From Porticoccaceae bacterium (GTDB taxonomy: Bacteria; Pseudomonadota; Gammaproteobacteria; Pseudomonadales; Porticoccaceae): a stretch of DNA of 64,000 nucleotides. Below, piece by piece: positions 23,019 through 47,688 of the stretch. Within the stretch, counting starts at the first letter, position 1; each line of letters begins with the position of its first letter. The notes under the pieces are model-generated. The model was not told the DNA's origin, made no database searches, and was given only the letters and a program-made list of their open reading frames with translations. Position numbers and translations under genes: made by a program. The stretch lies in NCBI GenBank assembly GCA_902562425.1, contig CACETF010000001.1, positions 124,001 to 188,000 on the forward strand, given 5' to 3'.

Positions 23019-23753
23019 ATGATTGAATTTGAAAAATACCATGAGAATCTGGACATAGATGATAATGATATTGTAACGGGCTTGACGGATCGACATGTTG
23101 TCGAGTGGACGGCTAATGAGCCGTCGGATGTGTGTAAAAATATTTTCATTCATCATCAATTAGTCAACCCCTTAAATGAGTTGAAATCGGAAGCGGCGAA
23201 TTATGGATTTAATTTGTGTGTTTGCAGTGGTTACAGATCATTTGCCCAGCAGGCCTCAATATGGGATGGAAAGCTATCGGGTCAAAGAGATGTTTTGGGT
23301 AGTAACGGTAAAGTTTTGAGTCTTGAAGGGCTGTCTGATCTTCAGAAAATTGAAGCAATATTAAGGTGGTCTGCTCTCCCGGGAGCATCTCGACATCATT
23401 GGGGCTCGGACATTGATGTTTTTGATGGTGCTGCTATGCCAAATAACTACCAATTAAGATTGGTTCCCGAAGAAACAATTGAAGGTGGCATGTTTGCACC
23501 CATGCATACTTGGTTGGATAAAAAATTGGATTCTAATAATGGATTCTTCAGACCGTATAACATTGACAATGGGGGATTAGCGCCGGAAAGATGGCATCTA
23601 AGCTATGCTCCGATAGCAAGGAATTTTGCTAACTTGTTGACGCCAGAACTAATAAAAAATTGCTTGATGACTCATAAGATTAGCCTTCACGCTACTGTTA
23701 TTGAAAATTTACATGAGATTTATCGACGCTACATCTCTGATGATATTAGGTAA
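23019..23753 (+). CDS. M15 family D-Ala-D-Ala carboxypeptidase-like protein
   Basis: From ATG 23019 the protein is 244 residues. The zinc ligands are seen in SRHHWGSDIDVFD (HxxxxxxD) and PERWHLSY (the catalytic Glu and third ligand His), with the substrate element CSGYRSF upstream: a VanY/M15B pattern. No signal peptide is evident, so export is uncertain; it may act on cytosolic cell-wall fragments. The end overlaps the longest possible cysE frame, and with the preferred cysE start the two are 16 bases apart. Confidence 0.87.
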   Translation: MIEFEKYHENLDIDDNDIVTGLTDRHVVEWTANEPSDVCKNIFIHHQLVNPLNELKSEAANYGFNLCVCSGYRSFAQQASIWDGKLSGQRDVLGSNGKVLSLEGLSDLQKIEAILRWSALPGASRHHWGSDIDVFDGAAMPNNYQLRLVPEETIEGGMFAPMHTWLDKKLDSNNGFFRPYNIDNGGLAPERWHLSYAPIARNFANLLTPELIKNCLMTHKISLHATVIENLHEIYRRYISDDIR

Positions 23754-23769
23754 TTTTGGGAGATTAGAT

Positions 23770-24561
23770 TTGATTGATGCCAAAGACTTATGGAAGACAA
23801 TGTTAAAAGAAGCAAGGATGATGCAAACGCTAGAACCCTCACTACGGGACTTTCTGGAAGTGCGAATACTCAAGAACCCTAATTTTGCTGATGCTTTAGC
23901 TAAAAATCTAAGTTCACATTTTTTTAAAATAGCTGAGTATAACATTAATCTTGAAAATATATTTTCAGACTCTTTAGATTTCGATTATGAGATTGTGCAA
24001 TGCGCATGTCGGGACTTGCAAGCATATGTAGATCGCGACCCAGCATGTGATCATTACGTGACTCCACTTCTCTTCTACAAGGGATTTCACGCTCTACAAT
24101 TACACCGAATTTGTCATAGCTTGTGGATTCGCGATCAACGTTACTTAGCTAGGTATCTACAAAGTAAAATGTCGGAATATTATGGGGTGGATATCCATCC
24201 CGGAGCAATTATTGGTGGTGGTGTTATGCTTGATCATGCAACTTCTCTCGTAATCGGAGAGACTGCGGTTGTTGGTGATGATGTGTCAATTCTTCACTCA
24301 GTAACACTGGGAGGAAGTGGGTTGCAATCGGGTGATCGACATCCAAAAATTGCTAATGGTGTTCTTATTGCAGCGGGTGCAAAAGTGTTGGGCGACATTG
24401 CCGTAGGAGAGGGGGTAAAAATCGGCGCGGGAAGCTTAGTACTAGAATCAGTCCCAGCTTATGTGACCGTTGCTGGGGTGCCAGCTAAGATAATTGGAAG
24501 TTCTACCGCCGGAATGCCCGCTTTAAACATGGATCAGCAAATAAATGATGAAGGGAATTGA
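23770..24561 (+). CDS. cysE: Serine O-acetyltransferase, first copy
   Basis: CysE makes O-acetylserine for cysteine synthesis. The left-handed beta-helix has VMLDHATSLVIGETAVV (catalytic Asp-His), DRHPKI and GAGSLVLESVPAYVTVAG. The substrate segment RDPACDHYVTPLLFYKGF is canonical, including the Asp matching E. coli D92. TTG 23770 with GGGAGA at 23758-23763 (6-base spacing) aligns best with the E. coli N-terminus; ATG 23740 is an alternative. The C-terminus ends in Asn, not the Ile that docks into CysK. A second copy lies at 28806-29597. Confidence 0.93.
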   Translation: MIDAKDLWKTMLKEARMMQTLEPSLRDFLEVRILKNPNFADALAKNLSSHFFKIAEYNINLENIFSDSLDFDYEIVQCACRDLQAYVDRDPACDHYVTPLLFYKGFHALQLHRICHSLWIRDQRYLARYLQSKMSEYYGVDIHPGAIIGGGVMLDHATSLVIGETAVVGDDVSILHSVTLGGSGLQSGDRHPKIANGVLIAAGAKVLGDIAVGEGVKIGAGSLVLESVPAYVTVAGVPAKIIGSSTAGMPALNMDQQINDEGN

Positions 24562-28805: not shown

Positions 28806-29597
28806 CTAGATCTCAAAATAATGATTCATATCCAAAGCAGGGTGTTCTGAGAGAGCGGTACCTATTATCTGACCGGGTACACCTACAACCAAGGAGTGGG
28901 GGCTCACTGATTTTAGAACAACACTACAGGCTCCAATCATGGATCCCTCACCTATTTCGATATTTCCGAGAATTTTTGCACCTGCACCAATAAGTACTCC
29001 GCACCGAATTTTGGGGTGGCGCTCTCCATACTCTTTACCAGTGCCTCCAAGAGTTACGCCTTGCATAATGGAAACATAATCCTCTACAACTGCGGTTTCT
29101 CCCACTACTAAGCCGGTGGCATGGTCTAGCATTACAGAGGCCCCAATTTTAGCTGCTGGATGAATGTCTACCCCATAACATCTTGAAGTATTTGACTGAA
29201 TCAAAAGAGCAAGCACCCTGTAGCCATCGCACCACAAGCTGTGCGCTAGTCGGTGGGCTTGGAGAGCTAAAAAACCGTTATAAAAGAGAAATGCCTCTAA
29301 GTTGGAATTACATGCTGAATCTCTATTGTTAATGGCCAATATGTCCAGAGTTGCTGATTTTACTCTGTGTGCCTTTTGGTTTTGAGTCAAGTGATAGCTC
29401 AATAGATCTTCAGGTAAATGATCATTCATAAGTGCATTCAATAAACGGCAATAAAGAGCCGTTTCAAAGTCTTTATGGCTTAAAACTGTTTGATTCAAAA
29501 AAATTTCAAGTAAAGGTTCATGTTTTATTATAGCTTTTGCTTCTGCGGTTATGTTTTGCCACACTTCGTCCACAAAATTTGCTGGTTTAGATTTCAT
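28806..29597 (-). CDS. cysE: Serine O-acetyltransferase, second divergent copy
   Basis: The 263-residue hexapeptide-repeat acetyltransferase has the catalytic Asp-His in VMLDHATGLVVGETAVVE and ERHPKI. It differs clearly from the copy at 23770: the substrate segment reads NRDSACNSNLEAFLFYNGF instead of RDPACDHYVTPLLFYKGF, so one Asp is Asn and the TP pair is lost. The chain ends in HYFEI, with the C-terminal Ile that inserts into CysK in the cysteine synthase complex. ATG 29597 is preferred over TTG 29609. It converges with epmA. Confidence 0.92.
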   Translation of the reverse strand: MKSKPANFVDEVWQNITAEAKAIIKHEPLLEIFLNQTVLSHKDFETALYCRLLNALMNDHLPEDLLSYHLTQNQKAHRVKSATLDILAINNRDSACNSNLEAFLFYNGFLALQAHRLAHSLWCDGYRVLALLIQSNTSRCYGVDIHPAAKIGASVMLDHATGLVVGETAVVEDYVSIMQGVTLGGTGKEYGERHPKIRCGVLIGAGAKILGNIEIGEGSMIGACSVVLKSVSPHSLVVGVPGQIIGTALSEHPALDMNHYFEI

Positions 29598-29758
29598 TGT
29601 CGCTGACAAGCCAAAAGTGGTTGTTGACCCTTTTTGTAGTTTTTAAAAATACAAATTATCATGTTAAGTAATCATCCAACTGCGTGTGTAGCCAAAGCCT
29701 ATTTGATAAATTATGTGAGAAATCAGAAATTTAAAAATTCGGTCAACGGAGTTTCATG

Positions 29759-32716: not shown

Positions 32717-33352
32717 GTGGATACTAAGCAAGGAATTGTTTCTGATCACTCCGCCATTCCTGTTAACTCAACTCGGCGCAAATTTTTAGCGGGTGCTACG
32801 TCTGTCCTGGGCGGACTAGGTTTAATAGGAGCCTCGGTGCCTTTTGTTGCGTCCTGGAAACCAAGTGCTAAAGCAAAAGCGGCGGGAGCACCCGTTAGGA
32901 TTGACATAGAGAAACTTGAGCCCGGCGGGAGAATTGTAGTGGAGTGGCGCGGAAAACCGGTTTATGTTATTCGAAGAACCAAAGAGGCACTGGATTCTGT
33001 TGCCAATTTCCCTCAACAAGCACTCAAAGACTCAGACTCTGTGGCTGCGAACCAGCCAAGTTATGTTAGTGGTTTTGCACGAACACAACCAGGCAAGGAA
33101 GAATATCTGGTGCTGATTGGATTGTGCACTCATCTCGGTTGCGCACCCATTTATCGCCCGGAAGTTGGAGCTGAAGATCTTGGTGGTGATTCTTGGCTTG
33201 GGGGATTTTTTTGTCCCTGTCATGGATCTAAATTCGATTTATCGGGACGAGTTTTTGCGGGAGTTCCTGCACCCACTAATCTAGAAATTCCGCCTCATTC
33301 GTATGAAACAGACTCAATCATTGTAATTGGAATTGACGCGGAGACTGCCTGA
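32717..33352 (+). CDS. petA: Ubiquinol-cytochrome c reductase Rieske iron-sulfur subunit
   Basis: The Rieske subunit carries the 2Fe-2S centre of the bc1 complex. Cluster motifs are CTHLGC and CPCHGS. The N-terminus has a twin-arginine signal (STRRKFLAGATSVLGG) acting as membrane anchor. The start is decided by GGGAGGT at 32701-32707 nine bases before GTG 32717, giving 211 residues; a TTG at 32699 lies before that site and is unlikely. The stop overlaps the petB start by one base (TGATG). Confidence 0.97.
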   Translation: MDTKQGIVSDHSAIPVNSTRRKFLAGATSVLGGLGLIGASVPFVASWKPSAKAKAAGAPVRIDIEKLEPGGRIVVEWRGKPVYVIRRTKEALDSVANFPQQALKDSDSVAANQPSYVSGFARTQPGKEEYLVLIGLCTHLGCAPIYRPEVGAEDLGGDSWLGGFFCPCHGSKFDLSGRVFAGVPAPTNLEIPPHSYETDSIIVIGIDAETA

Positions 33353-35385
33353 TGGATAAGCATTCAGATTTTGCGAGCTGGCTAGATGCTAGGCTACCCA
33401 CTCTCAAAAGAGAGTGGAACCGGCATATGGCCGAGTATTATGCCCCAAAAAATTTTAACTGGATGTATTATTTCGGAGTATTGTCAATTGTAGTACTTTT
33501 GATTCAATTAGTTACTGGTGTTTGGTTGCTTATGAGCTATCAAGGTTCTGCAGAGCAGGCATTTGCATCAGTAGAGTACATAATGCGAGATGTGGAGTAT
33601 GGCTGGATAATAAGATATGCACATTCAACTGGAGCATCTGCGTTTTTTATTGTGGTGTACATGCACATGTTCCGTGGTTTAGTTTACGGTTCATACAAAG
33701 CTCCAAGAGAGTTGGTTTGGGTGTTTGGGATGTCCATATACGTTGTGCTAATGGCAGAAGCGTTTCTTGGTTACGTGCTCCCTTGGGGTCAAATGTCCTA
33801 CTGGGGCGCTCAGGTGATTATTTCGTTATTTGGAGCGATTCCGATTGTTGGAGAGGATCTAGTACAATGGATCCGCGGTGATTATCTGATCTCAGGTATC
33901 ACTCTTAATCGTTTTATGTCACTTCATGTAGTTGCCATGCCAATAATTTTAATAGCACTTGTTGCTATGCATATTGTAGCGTTGCATGATGTAGGATCTA
34001 ATAATCCAGATGGAGTGTCGATCAAGAAGTATACTGATGCTACTGGTAAGCCTATTGACGGGATTCCATTTTATCCATATTTCGTAATCCATGACTTGGT
34101 CCCAATAACTGTTTTCTTGTTTGCGTTTTGCTCAGTCTTATTTTTTATGCCAGAAATGGGAGGATACTTTCTAGAACATGCGAATTTTGAGATAGCAAAT
34201 TCGCTGAAAACTCCAGAGCACATTGCTCCAGTTTGGTATTTTACGCCCTACTATTCGATGTTGAGGGCAGTACCCGACAAGTTGGGAGGTTTTGTTACAA
34301 TGGCAGCAGCAATTGCCATACTTTTCGTTTTACCGTGGCTTGATCGAAGCCCAGTCAGATCAATGCGATACAAAGGGAATGTGAGTCGAGTGATGATACT
34401 TCTATTTGTTACGAGCTTTATTATTCTGGGTTTTCTTGGCGTAAAAGCCCCTACCCCTGCTCGTACAATACTGGCTCAAATATGTACCATCATTTATTTC
34501 TCATACTTTGTTGGCATTTATTTTTGGACGCGTTATGAAAAAACTCGTATCGAACCAGATAGAATAACGATGGATGGAGGAATTGGCACATTTAAAACCT
34601 TATGCGGCTTCGGTTTAGTGGCACTTTTGGTTTTTGTGCCGCTAAGTGTTGTCGGTGCAGAAGGCAAAGATTGTGGCACAATCAATTGTGATAACTTCCG
34701 GCCCAGCTTAGGGGATGAGGTGTCTTTACAGAAAGGGGCAAAGCTTGCGGTCAATTATTGTATGGGTTGTCATTCTTTCAAGTACTCGCGTTGGGAGCGA
34801 GTGGCAGATGATTTGACGATACCGCATGATTTAATGATGGAAAACTTAGTATTTACGGACCAGAAGATTGGTGACTTGATGCATATCGGCATGAGCGAGG
34901 AGAAGGCTGCATCTTGGTTCGGGGCGGCGCCTCCCGATTTGACCCTTGTCGCGCGATCTAGATCGCCGGAATGGATATTTACTTATCTGAGGAACTTCTA
35001 CGCTGATGACTCTCGTCCTTTAGGTGTCAACAACAGAGTGTATAAAGATGTAGGAATGCCCCATGCATTGTTGGACCTACAAGGACTGACTGAATGCGCT
35101 CCAGGCCCCGTTCTGGCGAGCAATGGAGGTGTGAAAAGAGACCTGCTCACTGGAGAGGATTTGTTAGATGACGCTTGCGGGCGTTTTGAACAAATTTCCG
35201 ATGGAATTCTTTCCCCGTCTGAGTTTGATGATGCCGTTTATAACCTGGTTAATTTTCTAACCTACATTGCAGAGCCAATGGCACAGCAGCGCCAGCACAT
35301 TGGAAAGTTGGTGCTTTTTTTCTTGGCGTTATTACTCGTATTCGTCTACCTTCTGAACCGAGAGTATTGGAAGGGCATCCATTAG
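33352..35385 (+). CDS. petB/petC: Fused cytochrome b / cytochrome c1 of the bc1 complex
   Basis: One uninterrupted 677-codon frame encodes both subunits. Residues 1 to about 405 are cytochrome b, with likely haem ligands His91, His105, His192 and His207 and the Qo motif PEHI. Residues about 407-677 are cytochrome c1, with haem motif CMGCH at 470-474, probable axial Met569 (VGMPHAL) and a C-terminal anchor (VLFFLALLLVFVYLL). The junction contains a signal-peptide-like stretch ending SVVGAEG, near residues 417-440. Met407 could be an internal start but has no ribosome site. The same fusion, cleaved after synthesis, is known as FbcH in Bradyrhizobium; separate genes are usual in gammaproteobacteria. 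Confidence 0.95.
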   Translation: MDKHSDFASWLDARLPTLKREWNRHMAEYYAPKNFNWMYYFGVLSIVVLLIQLVTGVWLLMSYQGSAEQAFASVEYIMRDVEYGWIIRYAHSTGASAFFIVVYMHMFRGLVYGSYKAPRELVWVFGMSIYVVLMAEAFLGYVLPWGQMSYWGAQVIISLFGAIPIVGEDLVQWIRGDYLISGITLNRFMSLHVVAMPIILIALVAMHIVALHDVGSNNPDGVSIKKYTDATGKPIDGIPFYPYFVIHDLVPITVFLFAFCSVLFFMPEMGGYFLEHANFEIANSLKTPEHIAPVWYFTPYYSMLRAVPDKLGGFVTMAAAIAILFVLPWLDRSPVRSMRYKGNVSRVMILLFVTSFIILGFLGVKAPTPARTILAQICTIIYFSYFVGIYFWTRYEKTRIEPDRITMDGGIGTFKTLCGFGLVALLVFVPLSVVGAEGKDCGTINCDNFRPSLGDEVSLQKGAKLAVNYCMGCHSFKYSRWERVADDLTIPHDLMMENLVFTDQKIGDLMHIGMSEEKAASWFGAAPPDLTLVARSRSPEWIFTYLRNFYADDSRPLGVNNRVYKDVGMPHALLDLQGLTECAPGPVLASNGGVKRDLLTGEDLLDDACGRFEQISDGILSPSEFDDAVYNLVNFLTYIAEPMAQQRQHIGKLVLFFLALLLVFVYLLNREYWKGIH

Positions 35386-41363: not shown

Positions 41364-42398
41364 TTAGGTTTCAAGCCGCCAATTTAGGGTAAGTCCTGCC
41401 GCTAACGGCACTAAATGGGAATCTCGATAATCGATCCGCTTGGGCACTTGCCATGGATCACGCACTAACGAAATAAATTCAGAATTTTTTTCTAAGCCGT
41501 AAAATTCAGCGCCATTTATACTTGCAAATTTTTCTAACTGATGGAGCGCGTCTACTCGCTCAAAAGCTTCCGCGTACAATTCGATGGCTGCATGATGACT
41601 AAAACAACCAGCACAACCGCAGGAACTCTCTTTATGCGTGCGAGGGTGTGGCGCTGAATCTGTCCCTAAAAAAAATTTTTTTTCTCCACTGGTTGCGGCT
41701 TTAATGAGAGCATTTTGATGTAGGTCTCGCTTTAGAATTGGTAAACAAAAGAGGTGTGGCCTGATACCACCAACCAGCATATCATTTCTATTAAAAAGTA
41801 AGTGTTGCGGTGTGATGGTAGCAGCGATGTATTTATCGTTGTCTCTTACAAAGTCAACACCTTGTTTTGTTGTGATATGCTCCAATATGATCTTCAACTC
41901 GGGAAATCTATGTTTTATTTGTGTTAGGTGACGATCAATAAATACTTTTTCGCGGTCGAAAATATCTACCGAACTGTCTGTCACTTCTCCATGGATTTGA
42001 AGTGTTATTCCCAGTTCTTGCATAATTTCAAAGACCGCATATAAACCATTGAGATCTGTGACGCCAGATGCGGAATTAGTTGTTGCTCCAGCTGGGTAAT
42101 ATTTGCAACCAAAGATCAGACCCTCACTGTGTGCGGTTCTTATGCACTCTATTGATGTGTGATCGGTCAGATACATAACCATTAGGGGAGTCCAGTCGCT
42201 ATCAGACGGTCTATAACTAAGTATTGAGTCACGATACCTTTTAACTGACTCTGCCGATGTGACGGGAGGCGATAAATTGGGCATTACGATGCAGCGTTTA
42301 AAACAACGCATCGCGGCAGGAACTGTTGTTTCTAACGCGTCTTTGTCGCGAAGATGTGCGTGCCAATCATCGGGCTTTATTATTGAAATTCTATCCAT
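41364..42398 (-). CDS. pyrC: Dihydroorotase, PyrC type
   Basis: This zinc enzyme closes carbamoyl-aspartate in pyrimidine synthesis. The first metal pair is in DWHAHLRD; the carbamylated Lys is in GCKYYPAGATTNS. LEHITTK and GTDSAPHP supply the remaining ligands. The length of 344 residues equals E. coli PyrC. It is upstream of rnt in one unit. Confidence 0.97.
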   Translation of the reverse strand: MDRISIIKPDDWHAHLRDKDALETTVPAAMRCFKRCIVMPNLSPPVTSAESVKRYRDSILSYRPSDSDWTPLMVMYLTDHTSIECIRTAHSEGLIFGCKYYPAGATTNSASGVTDLNGLYAVFEIMQELGITLQIHGEVTDSSVDIFDREKVFIDRHLTQIKHRFPELKIILEHITTKQGVDFVRDNDKYIAATITPQHLLFNRNDMLVGGIRPHLFCLPILKRDLHQNALIKAATSGEKKFFLGTDSAPHPRTHKESSCGCAGCFSHHAAIELYAEAFERVDALHQLEKFASINGAEFYGLEKNSEFISLVRDPWQVPKRIDYRDSHLVPLAAGLTLNWRLET

Positions 42399-42574: not shown

Positions 42575-43231
42575 TTATTTGGAACATTGGTGCAAATATG
42601 AGTCGATAATATTTTTTACAGCTAAAAGACCAGCCAGTATAAAGAATGCGCCACAGGGAAAATTGAAAATTAATACTTCAAAGTTCTCGCCGAAAGGCTG
42701 TAATACCCAGTTTTTCGCTACTGATCCTAATATTAGATGCATATTTTTAAAAATCGTGCCTGCCCCTAAAAGTTCACGTAATATTCCCACAATTGATATA
42801 ACGACTAAAAAAGCGGTGCCGCAAACTAATCCGTCATATGCCGCTTGCACGACAGTCTTGTTGTATGCAATTACCCTTAGTCGGTCCCATATGACTCCAT
42901 TAGTGGCAATGAGAGGAACGAAGATTCCTATCGAAGTGGATAGCGTGTAGGCAAAAGCTTGCATCACTAAATCGGTAATCGTCACCAGAGCAGCGACCAC
43001 TAAAATAGCAAATGGAATCTTCGTTTTTTCAGTGAGTTTTTTACGATTTAATGAGACAAGAACATTTGAACTTATAAGAACGAGAAGGGTTGCAAGTCCC
43101 AAAGCAAGCGCATTAGCCAAAGTGGTAGCAATTGCCAGCACTGGAGTCATACCTATAAGTCGTACCAGCGTTAAGTTATTAGACCAAAGTTGTTTATTGT
43201 TTTTTTTAAAGAAGGAGGTATCGCTCATCAA
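42575..43231 (-). CDS. rsxE: RnfE/RsxE-like membrane subunit lacking cluster cysteines
   Basis: The 218-residue membrane protein has six likely helices and the RnfE/NqrD layout (NNLTLVRLIGMTP, SIGIFVPLIATN, ILRELLGAGTIF, NFPCGAFFILA). In E. coli RsxE the corresponding positions are GLCPLL and TNCIVVG. Here they read GMTPVL (Thr29) and TNGVIW (Gly112). These two Cys are ligands of the intramembrane 2Fe-2S cluster in Rnf/Nqr, so the site is gone. It overlaps rsxG by four bases (ATGA). nth does not follow as in E. coli. Confidence 0.92.
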   Translation of the reverse strand: MMSDTSFFKKNNKQLWSNNLTLVRLIGMTPVLAIATTLANALALGLATLLVLISSNVLVSLNRKKLTEKTKIPFAILVVAALVTITDLVMQAFAYTLSTSIGIFVPLIATNGVIWDRLRVIAYNKTVVQAAYDGLVCGTAFLVVISIVGILRELLGAGTIFKNMHLILGSVAKNWVLQPFGENFEVLIFNFPCGAFFILAGLLAVKNIIDSYLHQCSK

Positions 43232-43869
43232 TTTATTCCTTCCACTTTTTTGAGTGAATCGTAGCCTTTATTTAAGATAGCATCACTGAAGTTTAGTGTC
43301 GCGAATACTTGTCGTATTACTGCTCTCAGCGTTATGGTTGCTCCTGTAAATGAGTCAAAAGCTCCGCCATCGGGTGCTAAACCCCACTCTACGTCAGTAG
43401 TGTTGGAAAGAGATCGTCCGGAAAATTGGCTGATCCAATGGCTCTCAGTGATTTCTATCTTGTCTCCCAGTCCCGGTGTTTCTTGATGGGACGTTACGCG
43501 GACATCAATAATATTTCCTTCCATATTAACACTAACAAGTATTTTGATATCGCCACTGTATCCTTCTCCAACGGCTGGAATTATCAACGCTACCGGGATG
43601 CCGTAATTCTTGACAACATGGTAATCGCTGCCATTATTGAGCCCGAGTGACTTCAAGTGCGTTTCAGGCACCGATAGTGACTCGATAAAAACGTCTCCAT
43701 CATGATAACTTTTTGGTACGAGTTTAAGTAACTTTTCTTTTTTGGACGAAAGTATATTTGAAGAAATAATTTTTTTCGTGGAGGAGTGCACAAAACCCAA
43801 TACCAGCATTAATAGAATAGCAGGCACACTAATGAACATGATTCTTCGCAGGCTTGCCTTACTTGTCAT
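43228..43869 (-). CDS. rsxG: RnfG/RsxG-like FMN-binding subunit
   Basis: The 213-residue protein has one N-terminal membrane anchor (about 9-28) and a periplasmic FMN domain. The covalent FMN attachment motif is FDSFTGATIT with acceptor Thr168, and HQETPGLGDKIE is conserved. In Rnf, RnfG FMN passes electrons on the outer face. It overlaps rsxD and rsxE by ATGA junctions. The site looks intact, in contrast to the lost cluster sites in A and E. An ApbE flavin transferase would be needed and is not in this window. Confidence 0.94.
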   Translation of the reverse strand: MTSKASLRRIMFISVPAILLMLVLGFVHSSTKKIISSNILSSKKEKLLKLVPKSYHDGDVFIESLSVPETHLKSLGLNNGSDYHVVKNYGIPVALIIPAVGEGYSGDIKILVSVNMEGNIIDVRVTSHQETPGLGDKIEITESHWISQFSGRSLSNTTDVEWGLAPDGGAFDSFTGATITLRAVIRQVFATLNFSDAILNKGYDSLKKVEGIN

Positions 43870-44891
43870 CTATTCTTGTCGCTATCCGCATTTATAACGA
43901 TATACTTATCTATCGTTGGAGCTATGAAGTTGGCTATGAGGACTGCATAGGCAAGGCCGTCTGGATAATCACTCCATCCTCGCAAAAAGAACACTAAAAC
44001 TCCAACGAGAATTCCAAAAGCAACACGCCCACTAGCGCCAGTTGCAGAGGATACAGGATCAGTAATTATAAAAAAAGCGCCGATCATTGTCGCCCCGCTA
44101 AAAAGGTGGAAGATTGGGGACCCTAAACTCGCAGAGCTTCCAGAATCCCAAAAAACAAGTGATAAAATTGCAATGCTTCCCAACATTCCACTGGGTGCAT
44201 GCCAGGTAATTATTTTGGTAATGATCAAAAACAAACCACCCAAAAGAAAACCTAGGTTAACCCATTCCCAACCGACTCCGGCCCACCCACCTTTTGAAAA
44301 GATTTCGTTTTCGAGGTAAAGTTGAGTTACAAGGAGACCATTATTTTGCTTAAAAATCTCGAGCGGAGTTGCGCCAGTAATACCGTCGAATTGCTGTATA
44401 TTGCCAATTATAATCATGATCGAATCAATCAGCGTCAGTTGCTGGGCCTCATTAGAATAAGTTGGGTCCACAGCAACCCATTGACTCATTGAAAAAGGAA
44501 AACACAGTAATAACGTGGCGTAGCCCACCATTGCAGGGTTGAAAGGGTTGGCTCCTTGGCCGCCATAGGCATGTTTTCCTATCAGTATTGCTACAGAGCA
44601 CCCTATGGTGGGTAACCACCAGGGGCAAAGAGGAGGTAGTGATAAGCCAATTAAGACGGCAGTTAAAACGGTACTAAAGTCTAGCGGGCAATAATTAAGC
44701 GATTTTTCTTTAAGGCTGAGTGCAATAGTCTCAAAGACTATTGAACTGAAAATGCAAATAAAAACGTTTAAAGAAACACCCCAACCGAAGTGCCAAGAGA
44801 GTGCCAAGAACCCAGGGAAACAAGCTAAAATGACCAGCAAGGCTATTTGGTCACCGGTTCGATCAGTGGTATTCAGCATGAAATTGGTCAT
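43866..44891 (-). CDS. rsxD: RnfD/RsxD-like FMN-binding membrane subunit
   Basis: The 341-residue protein has about nine to ten membrane helices. NPFNPAMVGY is conserved and the covalent FMN site is DGITGATPLE with acceptor Thr175. The last helices include SGATMIGAFFIITDPVSSATG, the family C-terminal signature (MIGAFFIITDPVS). It starts immediately after the rsxA stop (TGAATG), where rsxB and rsxC would normally lie, and overlaps rsxG by four bases. Confidence 0.95.
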   Translation of the reverse strand: MTNFMLNTTDRTGDQIALLVILACFPGFLALSWHFGWGVSLNVFICIFSSIVFETIALSLKEKSLNYCPLDFSTVLTAVLIGLSLPPLCPWWLPTIGCSVAILIGKHAYGGQGANPFNPAMVGYATLLLCFPFSMSQWVAVDPTYSNEAQQLTLIDSIMIIIGNIQQFDGITGATPLEIFKQNNGLLVTQLYLENEIFSKGGWAGVGWEWVNLGFLLGGLFLIITKIITWHAPSGMLGSIAILSLVFWDSGSSASLGSPIFHLFSGATMIGAFFIITDPVSSATGASGRVAFGILVGVLVFFLRGWSDYPDGLAYAVLIANFIAPTIDKYIVINADSDKNR

Positions 44892-45476
44892 TCACATTAT
44901 CCCACGGAATCCAGAAAAGGCCACAGACATTAGTCCCATTGTAATCAGGGCAATCGGTCCTCCTTGGAGGTGAATGGGGATGTGTGGGCCAGTTATTTTA
45001 TGCTGTAGGTTTGCAAATGAAATTAGAACGATGGAAAAACCAATTCCCGCGCCAAGGCCATGAGATGTTGCTTGAAAAACTGACATAACGTTCTCAGAAT
45101 TCTGCAAGGCGATTCCTAAAACTGCTGAATTAACACATAAAAGGGGAAAAAAAATATCAAAAATTTTATTGGAGCAAACGTTATATTTCTCAATAAAAAA
45201 TTTGTGAAGCGATACGACTGCAGTGATCAACAGCATGAAAAAAAGAGTACGTAAATAAACAAGTTGTAACGACTCAAGAATTATTTTTTCAAAACAATAG
45301 TTAATGCCCGAGCTAACTGTCATCACTGAGGTTGTTATTAGGGCTATGGTGGGAACGGCTTCCCTATCTTCGGGAAGACGCATCGAATCAGACACGCCTA
45401 AGGTTTGCACTAGTACATAGTTATTACTTAGGCTAGCCACAATAACTAAGTAAGTGAATTCTTCTATTGTGAGCAT
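44892..45476 (-). CDS. rsxA: RnfA/RsxA-like membrane subunit lacking cluster cysteines
   Basis: The 194-residue six-helix protein resembles RnfA/NqrE (SNNYVLVQTLGV, YLRTLFFML, NSAVLGIAL, GLGAGIGFSIVLISFA, MGLMSVAFSGF). The two cluster Cys are replaced: GLCPF of E. coli is GVSDS here (Ser29) and TNCAVLG is VNSAVLG (Ser117). A Cys114 three residues earlier is not at the ligand position. It is first of the A-D-G-E operon, 66 bases after metG on the same strand, with GGAG before ATG 45476. Confidence 0.92.
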   Translation of the reverse strand: MLTIEEFTYLVIVASLSNNYVLVQTLGVSDSMRLPEDREAVPTIALITTSVMTVSSGINYCFEKIILESLQLVYLRTLFFMLLITAVVSLHKFFIEKYNVCSNKIFDIFFPLLCVNSAVLGIALQNSENVMSVFQATSHGLGAGIGFSIVLISFANLQHKITGPHIPIHLQGGPIALITMGLMSVAFSGFRGIM

Positions 45477-45542: not shown

Positions 45543-47561
45543 TTAGGTTACTCGCTGTCCCGGAGAGGCTCCAATGTCAGGTTCAAGTAAATAGATACCG
45601 GTTTCAGAGCTTGCGGCAAGCACCATTCCATGAGAAGTACCAAATCGCATTTTGCGGGGAGCTATATTCGCTATCATCAATGTAAGCCTTCCTTCCAGTT
45701 GCTCAGGGAGATAAGCAGATTTTATGCCTGAAAAGACTTGTCTTTTTTCCGTGCCAATATCTAATATAAGTTTAACTAACTTATCTGCTCCTTGAACTGT
45801 CTCAGCTTTAACGATTTTTGCGATTCGGAGATCCATTTTTTGAAATTCTTCAATTTTGACCTCTTCAACTGCTTTTGGGTTGACCCCGGCCCTGATCTCG
45901 GTTGTTGATGTTTCGTTTAAATCGACATTATTTGATGCAAGCATTGAATTGATTGATTTTTTATCTATTCTTTTGAGCATAGGTGAGAAAGTTTCAATAC
46001 GGTGATTTTTCAGTGGCTTACTTATACCACGCCAATTTAATTCATCATTCAAAAACATCTCACTGGCTTTTGCTGTCCTGGGAAGGATCGGTTTTAGGTA
46101 GATCATTAGTATGCGGAACAAATTGATTCCCAATGAACAGATTTCATGCACCTCTTGCTTTTTTTTCGGATCTTTATTTAATTTCCAAGGCTCTGATACC
46201 GCGATGTATTCATTAATTGAATCTGCCTGGGCCATGATCAACCGAACCGCTCCACTAAAATCTCGATTTTCGTAAAGACTGGCAATCTTATCGGAAACAC
46301 CCGATACCTTTTCAAAAAGTTCAGCATTATGGATCGTTGCAGACAAAATGCCAGCATTATCATTAGTTATAAATTTTGCGCATCTACTGGCAATGTTCAC
46401 CACTTTCCCAATTAGATCACTGTTGACTTTTTGAACAAAATCATCGAGATTTAAATCCACATCATCAATTGAACGAGATAACTTGCTCGCGTAGTAGTAA
46501 CGGAGATATTCGGGATTTAAATGTTCTAAATAGCTTTTTGCATTTATAAATGTACCTCTTGATTTGGACATTTTGAAACCATTTATGGTTACAAAGCCAT
46601 GCACCGCAATTTCGGTCGGTGTGCGGAAACCAGTGCTTTTGAGAATGGCGGGCCAAAATAAAGCGTGGAAGTTGACTATATCTTTACCGATAAAATGATA
46701 GAGCTCTGACGTGCTATCGGGGCTCCAGAAAGCATCGAAATTAATATCTTGTTTTTTGCATAAAGCTTTAAAACTGGCCATATAACCAATTGGCGCATCA
46801 AGCCAAACGTAAAAATATTTATCTGATGTGTCTGGAATTTTAAAGCCAAAATAGGGGGCATCGCGACTTATATCCCAATCTTTAAGACCATCGTTTAGCC
46901 ACTCACGCAACTTATTAGACACCTCTGTTTGTAAATGTCTGTCCAAGGTCCAAGATTTCAAGTAATCAGTGAATTCTGATAGTTTAAAAAAATAGTGTAG
47001 CGATTCTTTGTGAATAGGAGTAGTGCCAGATAGGACTGATATGGGGTTAATTAACTCTGTAGCTTGATATGTTGCACCGCAGGATTCACAATTATCACCA
47101 TACTGATCAAGCGCCTTACACCTGGGACACTGTCCTTTTACATAACGGTCTGCTAAAAAGATTTTTTTCTTCGAATCGTAAGACTGCACGACGGCTCTTT
47201 GAGTGATGTAGCCTCGGTCGACTAAACGTTTGTATATTAAATTGACTAATGTTTTGTTTTCATCAGTATGTGTGGAGTGAAAGTGGTCAACATTAATCAA
47301 GAAATCAGAAAAGTCAGCTTCGTGGGACGCTTGCATTTTCTTTATGTGCTCTTCTGGAGAAATTTTTTGCTCGTCCGCTTTAAGCATTATTGCCGTTCCG
47401 TGCGCATCATCGGCACACACGTAGTAACAATTGTTACCGCGTAATTTTTGGAATCGGGTCCAAATGTCTGTTTGTGTGTACTCAAGTATGTGCCCAAGAT
47501 GCAAAGGGGCATTAGCGTATGGGAGCGCGCTGGTGACAAGTATGTTTCGGACAGCAGACAT
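45543..47561 (-). CDS. metG: Methionyl-tRNA synthetase
   Basis: The 672-residue enzyme charges elongator and initiator tRNA-Met. HIGH-type element HLGHILEY, zinc knuckle C-P-R-C plus C-E-S-C, KMSKS loop [10 protein letters not shown], and a C-terminal tRNA-binding dimerisation domain (about 570-672, starting near [11 protein letters not shown]). ATG 47561 ([19 protein letters not shown]) is the natural start; ATG 47603 adds 14 unrelated residues. It is divergent from mrp, as in Pseudomonas, and upstream of the rsx operon. Confidence 0.97.
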
Positions 47562-47688
47562 TAAGGTTGATGGCCAAAATAATATATTAAGGGCTTTAAT
47601 CATATATAGTTTGAACTAAATTTTCATTTGTTATTCTTGCGAATATTGTTAGTTTATTAGGGGGAAGTTATGTTTTGCGGGGTGAATT

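Follow-up and report, generated by a model that had tools for sequence, protein, structure and literature searches.

The window analysed here, a stretch of 64,000 nt from a Porticoccaceae bacterium (GCA_902562425.1, contig CACETF010000001.1, positions 124,001-188,000 of the forward strand), carries on its minus strand, between metG and pyrC, an Rnf operon reduced to four genes, rsxA, rsxD, rsxG and rsxE (A-D-G-E), whose open reading frames (ORFs) leave no space for rnfB and rnfC. Since all iron-sulfur (Fe-S) parts are lost and the flavin parts are kept, the remaining complex must do something other than the textbook reaction. The reading we favour, to which the sequence evidence gives in our judgement an even chance, is that of a reduced Rnf core which would have lost its Fe-S centres together with the redox-gated Na+ step and kept the flavin chain. 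D and G would form a transmembrane flavin wire with A and E as scaffold, and the complex would no longer be a ferredoxin:NAD Na+ pump. Losses and retention of subunits and residues of this kind recur among relatives.

The rsxA-like gene (44892..45476, 194 aa) is followed by the rsxD-like (43866..44891, 341 aa), rsxG-like (43228..43869, 213 aa) and rsxE-like genes (42575..43231, 218 aa counted from a TTG, with an ATG one codon downstream), all on the minus strand and matching PF02508, PF03116, PF04205 and PF02508, respectively. The A/D junction, which is the usual site of rnfB and rnfC, reads TGAATG (44889..44894, minus strand). An earlier sequence-only reading of the window had described a four-gene operon lacking these two genes, and the ORFs bear it out; its TGAATG and ATGA junctions were read again at A/D and D/G, while the G/E junction reads TGATG, with a 1-nt overlap. 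Because the reading frames are joined and four relatives show the same layout, an assembly gap within the operon was ruled out. RsxD and RsxG score above the cut-offs of the NCBIfam rnfD and rnfG models (TIGR01946 and TIGR01947, respectively). RsxA scores below the NCBIfam rnfA cut-off (138.8 versus 229.3 bits) and RsxE below that of TIGR01948 (179.9 versus 213.4 bits), yet above that of NF009070 (208.6 versus 184). The stricter RsxA, RsxD and RsxG equivalog cut-offs are reached by none of these three proteins. RsxD matches PF03116 only, with no PF00175 fusion, and its predicted fold resembles A. vinelandii RnfD (8ahx_D; template modeling score 0.82 by query length). The AlphaFold model of RsxA is weak (mean predicted local distance difference test score, pLDDT, 66) and was not used as evidence.

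Residue numbers of reference refer to the structure and mutants of Acetobacterium woodii Rnf (PMC11889175) and were mapped via alignment to PDB 9eri. All four ligands of AE1, the intramembrane [2Fe-2S] cluster of A and E, are replaced: C25 and C113 of A by Ser29 and Ser117, C25 and C108 of E by Thr29 and Gly112, exactly as first noticed from the sequence. The AE1 Cys are replaced in 5/5 genomes of the window's clade. Canonical loci of the family, by contrast, keep all of them where covered (83/83 and 84/84 for the two A columns, 76/76 for both E columns, rows below 60% of the window protein length being left out), and the possibility that these columns vary in working Rnf, which the sequence-only reading had raised against itself, is rejected. 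The RnfE Na+ ion pair R67/E115 has become Lys71/Arg119. On the other hand, the five flavin-site residues checked are all kept (5/5), namely Asn118 and Asp278 of the riboflavin site and the flavin mononucleotide (FMN) Thr175 in D, and Tyr104 and the FMN Thr178 in G. Thr175 had been correctly assigned before; the assignment of Thr168 in G was wrong and is replaced by Thr178. The flavin residues are also unchanged in every covered cluster-lost protein of the family, except one G protein of genus g13 with Ser for Thr.

In A. woodii, mutants of the AE1 Cys lost growth and ferredoxin:NAD+ activity, and D N123A/D249A and G T185A/Y113A likewise abolished both (PMC11889175). The A/E cluster is held to be unique to Rnf/Nqr and to gate ion transport (PMC11889175; PMC12174285), and the R67-E115 pair of RnfE has been linked to Na+ entry and ion gating (PMC11889175). 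Because the A. woodii mutants are inactive without the very ligands that are lost here, ferredoxin:NAD+ chemistry is not expected of the window complex; judged by its residues, it should not perform this reaction and should retain what electron movement through D and G needs. That the AE1 set is lost and the D/G flavin set kept, when both are essential in A. woodii, supports the flavin wire. On the cytoplasmic side of Rnf, electrons enter and leave through RnfB and RnfC. The riboflavin of D faces the cytoplasm, and the FMNs of D and G lie nearer the periplasm (PMC12174285; PMC11889175). Electrons from a donor on the cytoplasmic or membrane side would enter at the riboflavin of D, pass to the FMN of D and then to the FMN of G, and be exchanged there with a periplasmic partner; flow may be one-way, by analogy with two-subunit NQR/RNF-like systems (PMC8238504, PMC10979944), and A and E would be left mainly as scaffold. 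We infer that the flavins are truly attached, that electrons flow in this direction and that A and E act as scaffold.

The window's genome is 89.6% complete, so that the absence of rnfB and rnfC elsewhere is not absolute. No rnfC was found (best TIGR01945 match, E 1.2e-10), the sole PF01512 match being rejected as NuoF-like by reading, and no rnfB (best E 4e-9, for a short stretch with an internal stop). The sequence-only reading had named rnfB and rnfC elsewhere, together with a second Cys-bearing rnfA/E pair, as what would speak against it. A second pair of this kind was rejected, since the only other PF02508 pair in the genome is NqrD/NqrE, which keep their Cys and belong to a separate nqr operon (nqrA-F by reading) with apbE and nqrM. 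One ApbE was found, that beside the nqr genes. With this operon, apbE and nqrM present, the genome should be able to attach FMN and to build the NqrD/E cluster.

The window genome is not unique, since the Cys-less A-D-G-E set was found in related genomes, where the sequence-only reading had proposed to look for it. Within the family, 112 genomes were searched, 108 gave a match, and 102 loci, some cut by contig ends, were read for gene content and Cys state. Genus g1 holds five A-D-G-E genomes including that of the window, and in all five the four frames and the tight junctions are intact, with protein identity down to 60% (G)-77% (A). Three other g1 genomes retain B and C and have lost three ligands, E C108 being kept (G001 and G007, with a complete operon, and G013, with an operon spread over two contigs). 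G003, also of g1, has no RnfB, only the tail of RnfC in a 215-aa ORF (L072, 5083-5730; tail match E 5e-7), and two Cys and two Ser at the four AE1 sites. The C25 position of both A and E holds Ser or Thr in every covered g1 row, whereas Cys persists at E C108 in G001, G003, G007 and G013 and at A C113 in G003. Only Nqr-type matches were obtained in G004 (92% complete) and G012 (73%) of this genus, and no match in G006, G008 and G011 (68-78% complete). Genus g12 has three genomes with B and C, of which G034 has lost all four ligands and G111 and G112 are covered in A only. All four ligands are lost in the two A-D-G-E genomes of g13 and three in G070, also A-D-G-E. G117 has lost two ligands, and the core of its RnfC is deleted, with the tail fused to RnfB (L164, about 1974-2364; tail E 1.9e-29). 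Where RnfB and RnfC are present in cluster-lost family loci, they keep their Fe-S cysteines (G013 partly covered).

On a MetG tree made by a quick method (107 rows, 74 of them under half filled; G424 left out), loss of AE1 takes at least 6 changes, and the starred branches alone force 3. The group of G001 and G007 is sister to G003 plus the window's clade, on a joint branch with support 90 that is not starred. As these genomes keep B and C, ligands began to go before B and C; from the tree we infer that in g1 AE1 ligands were probably lost first, with B and C intact, and B and C later, and the Cys positions of g1 point to this order as well. In addition to its usual rnf operon, G131 has a second one (L076), which contains B and C and keeps all four A/E Cys.

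A survey of 391 genomes of the order revealed strong rnfD without strong rnfC in further lineages; 20 such loci were read, among which G214 and G228 have a separate RnfC. Seven loci of families f39, f15 and f43 that looked RnfC-less by TIGR01945 (L197, L205, L206, L209, L212, L213 and L215) are RnfB-RnfC Fe-S fusions, composed by reading of RnfB with the Fe-S part and tail of RnfC and lacking its N-terminal part. They keep their Cys (all four in six loci; G149 covered in A only) and are not members. Since fusions of this type escape TIGR01945, its absence alone was not counted as evidence. In the A-D-G-E locus of G431 a single Cys is lost, Arg standing at A C25; the E ligand sites of G231 are occupied by Ser and Phe, and G305 and G463 are D-G-E with no A found beside. 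G044 was rejected as a further A-D-G-E case: it gives no PF02508 match and its D is fused to G in a 615-aa protein (L211, 3890-5737) adjoining an RnfB-like gene. A D-G fusion in a genome without a PF02508 match is nevertheless what a working core made up of D and G would predict.

The arrangement A-B*-D-G-E, with three AE1 ligands lost, occurs in five genomes of a single genus belonging to the Pseudomonas-type family f21. Named genomes were scanned with the RnfA of these five, and the best 80 of 237 relatives (L221-L300) were kept. All 80 are titled Pseudomonas and have A-B*-D-G-E with three of the four AE1 Cys lost, and an RnfC match was obtained in 0/80. A C25 is replaced by Asp (79/80) or Glu (1/80) and A C113 by Ala (80/80); E C25 is never Cys and E C108 always is (n=80). 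D N123, D T156, G Y113 and G T185 are kept in 80/80, D249 being Glu in 79/80 and a gap in 1/80. The membrane anchor of RnfB is present in 0/80, as compared with 81/82 canonical proteins (82 of 85 loci having B found), the single exception adjoining masked bases. An RnfC-like tail on the Pseudomonas RnfB, seen by eye, is not claimed, as BLAST failed to match it and the profiles matched it weakly, mainly through composition bias. The same path, in part or to its end, seems to have been taken independently by relatives, Pseudomonas included.

The ratio of nonsynonymous to synonymous substitution rates (dN/dS, NG86) was determined for six pairs from the five genomes of the window's clade. It amounts to 0.16-0.32 for A, 0.18-0.33 for D, 0.21-0.48 for G and 0.17-0.33 for E, and to 0.05-0.20 for the neighbours metG, pyrC, rnt and apbC. 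Canonical pairs (19 chosen, of which 16 to 19 could be used for each gene) give medians of 0.018 (A), 0.058 (D), 0.094 (G) and 0.043 (E). All four genes are under constraint, but it is several-fold weaker than that on canonical Rnf. Among nine g1 rows, a change in one row or more is seen at 76% of the canonical-invariant columns of A, 59% of those of E, 29% of D and 39% of G, and the flavin columns do not belong to those changed. When all cluster-lost lineages are taken, Pseudomonas included, 107/113 invariant columns of A and 90/94 of E are changed in at least one lineage. Given such widespread change in A and E, losing the Cys columns is in itself nothing unusual for these two proteins; its importance lies in the consequence. 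The proposal of a reworked and selected complex, rather than decay, mostly holds, given the open frames, dN/dS below 1, the kept flavin sites and the recurrent loss; it is weakened by the relaxation, which is clear above all in A and E. With only Nqr-type matches in G004 and G012, some of the complex may be in the course of being lost.

Several points weigh against a flavin wire. The elevated dN/dS fits slow decay as well, and A and E are still under some constraint, hence not simply dispensable. By our own arithmetic, retention of all checked flavin residues by chance has a probability of about 3e-4, which is only moderately improbable and takes columns and lineages as independent, with Pseudomonas D left out. 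Finally, the N-terminus of the window D is short beside NqrB and the NqrB-type extension is absent, so that a quinone site is not supported. The operon could instead be a slowly decaying relic in which AE1 was lost, then B and C, with A, D, G and E now following and little or no function left. Relaxed dN/dS, the almost general change of invariant A and E columns, the g1 relatives with Nqr-type matches only and the reduction of RnfC to a tail in G003 and G117 would all agree with this. We consider it rather unlikely, however, as frames and tight junctions remain intact in five genomes at the identities given above, dN/dS stays far under 1 and flavin residues are kept in about six lineages.

The idea of another electron donor, put forward by the sequence-only reading, fits the data. 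In its explicit form, a cytoplasmic Fe-S or flavin protein would dock on D in place of B and C, with electrons still ending in the periplasm. Cytoplasmic feeding of a core without AE1 may persist in relatives, where B and C keep their Fe-S Cys or, in Pseudomonas, an anchorless RnfB is kept. The PHxH motif at the N-terminus of D, found in 74/78 canonical proteins, is missing in the window's clade, which may reflect a changed cytoplasmic face. The motif is however also missing in the RnfC-keeping G001, G007 and G111 and is not cleanly tied to RnfC, and no candidate donor gene adjoins the operon in the window's clade; such a swap seems unlikely to us. Still far less probable is a cluster held by Ser/Thr or other ligands, with the usual function sustained by B and C from other genes. 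Ser is able to ligate iron, and G003 combines Cys and Ser at its four sites, but one position is Gly in the window E and neither rnfB/rnfC nor RseC was found in the window's genome. A non-redox role (ion leak or regulation) with structural flavins would be in line with the alteration, not deletion, of the E ion pair and with the remaining selection on A and E. This role, the other proposal of the sequence-only reading, is disfavoured and in our view quite improbable, since every residue checked for the three flavins is kept, while the ion-gating residues R67 and E115 are replaced (PMC11889175).

A further protein follows the state of the cluster. RseC was searched with PF04246 in 22 genomes and 80 more. 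Of the family genomes that keep the cluster Cys where covered, 47/49 have it (the exceptions being G014 and G085), versus 0/16 of those that have lost ligands; 9 of these 16 have a completeness of 90% or more. In f21 it is present in 0/5 genomes with ligands lost versus 9/9 with RnfC (the Cys of these nine were not read), and it was not found in G431, G231 and G044, giving 0/24 genomes with at least one AE1 ligand or A/E itself gone. Nor was it found in G187, which resembles G044 by rnfD score and whose locus was not read. Five RseC-less genomes (G001, G007, G034, G111 and G112) keep B and C with their Fe-S cysteines, and RseC thus tracks the A/E cluster, not B/C. In family genomes with a MetG row the difference is 44/46 versus 0/16 (Fisher's p 5.6e-13, genomes being treated as independent). 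A paired test on the MetG tree has 3 pairs on supported branches and 6 on the best tree, with p 0.05 unreachable; RseC goes in the same direction in 2.8 of 3 pairs on average and never in the opposite one. There are counter-cases: f39 genomes with Cys kept (G323, G474, G268 and G149) gave no RseC match, perhaps through divergence, G445 gave a sub-threshold match only, and RseC is present in the family genomes G124, G101 and G102 although a search of these revealed no Rnf core, which may be due to assembly gaps or to RseC having a different role.

RseC has been considered a regulator or stabiliser in Clostridium ljungdahlii (PMC9124969) and part of the SoxR reducer in E. coli (PMC11729352), and the NQR cluster is inserted with NqrM (PMC12174285). 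RseC may be an A/E cluster factor, because it is lost along with the cluster, also in genomes whose RnfB and RnfC retain their Fe-S ligands. We tentatively propose, at somewhat less than even chance, a wider picture drawn from these genomes: Rnf would have repeatedly turned from a redox ion pump to a flavin wire, iron-free in the window's clade, and RseC would build or maintain the A/E [2Fe-2S] cluster as the counterpart of NqrM. As RseC is lost together with the cluster, its role can be tested directly.

Compared with RnfABCDGE/RsxABCDGE, the window has orthologous A, D, G and E in the same order and metG neighbourhood, with the D/G flavin sites kept; it differs in lacking RnfB, RnfC and the A/E [2Fe-2S] ligands, in the replaced Na+ pair of E and in that RseC was not found in its genome. 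It shares a homologous four-subunit membrane core with Na+-NQR (NqrABCDEF), but its D lacks the NqrB N-terminal extension, its operon has no NqrA or NqrF, and the nqr operon is separate. NQR/RNF-like two-subunit systems also pair a D-type subunit in the membrane with an FMN subunit of the G type, and one-way electron movement to the outside has been proposed for them (Meheust et al. 2021, PMC8238504; PMC10979944). Their D-like part carries a fused NAD-binding domain (PF00175) and does not conserve the FMN Thr, whereas the window has no such fusion and keeps the D Thr as well as A and E. The Pseudomonas A-B*-D-G-E loci share the loss of RnfC and of three of the four AE1 ligands, the kept flavin sites and the lack of an RseC match (five genomes tested), and differ by their RnfB (anchorless, with a long tail), the kept E Cys108 and Glu at D249. 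As a precedent, RnfC has been proposed to have lost its cofactors after RnfB loss and to have stayed as a structural part (PMC4014512).

The names rnfABDGE, rsxABDGE, rnfADGE and rsxADGE are absent from the literature searched. Among the matches listed in further searches, no paper was recognised as a description of Cys-less A/E, and 'absence of rnfC' matched for Fusobacterium only. The A-D-G-E core is a form of Rnf for which no description was found in that literature. Complexes which give up the cluster yet keep their flavins show a removable pump part and a kept wire part, and the loci form a graded series, from cluster lost with B/C kept, through loss of B or C, to A/E lost with D and G fused. 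As Pseudomonas carries one of these forms, its function is testable there.

The operon is flanked upstream by metG (45543..47603, minus strand), a synteny anchor which adjoins rsxA in most family loci, and downstream by pyrC (41364..42398, minus strand), the neighbour in the window's genus as judged by its ORF and the loci of relatives. Elsewhere in the window, serine acetyltransferase-like frames, labelled from their translations and without a family search, lie at 23701-24561 (plus strand) and 28806-29609 (minus strand). A single 677-aa frame (33352-35385, plus strand) fuses bc1 cytochrome b (PF00033, PF00032) to cytochrome c1 (PF02167).

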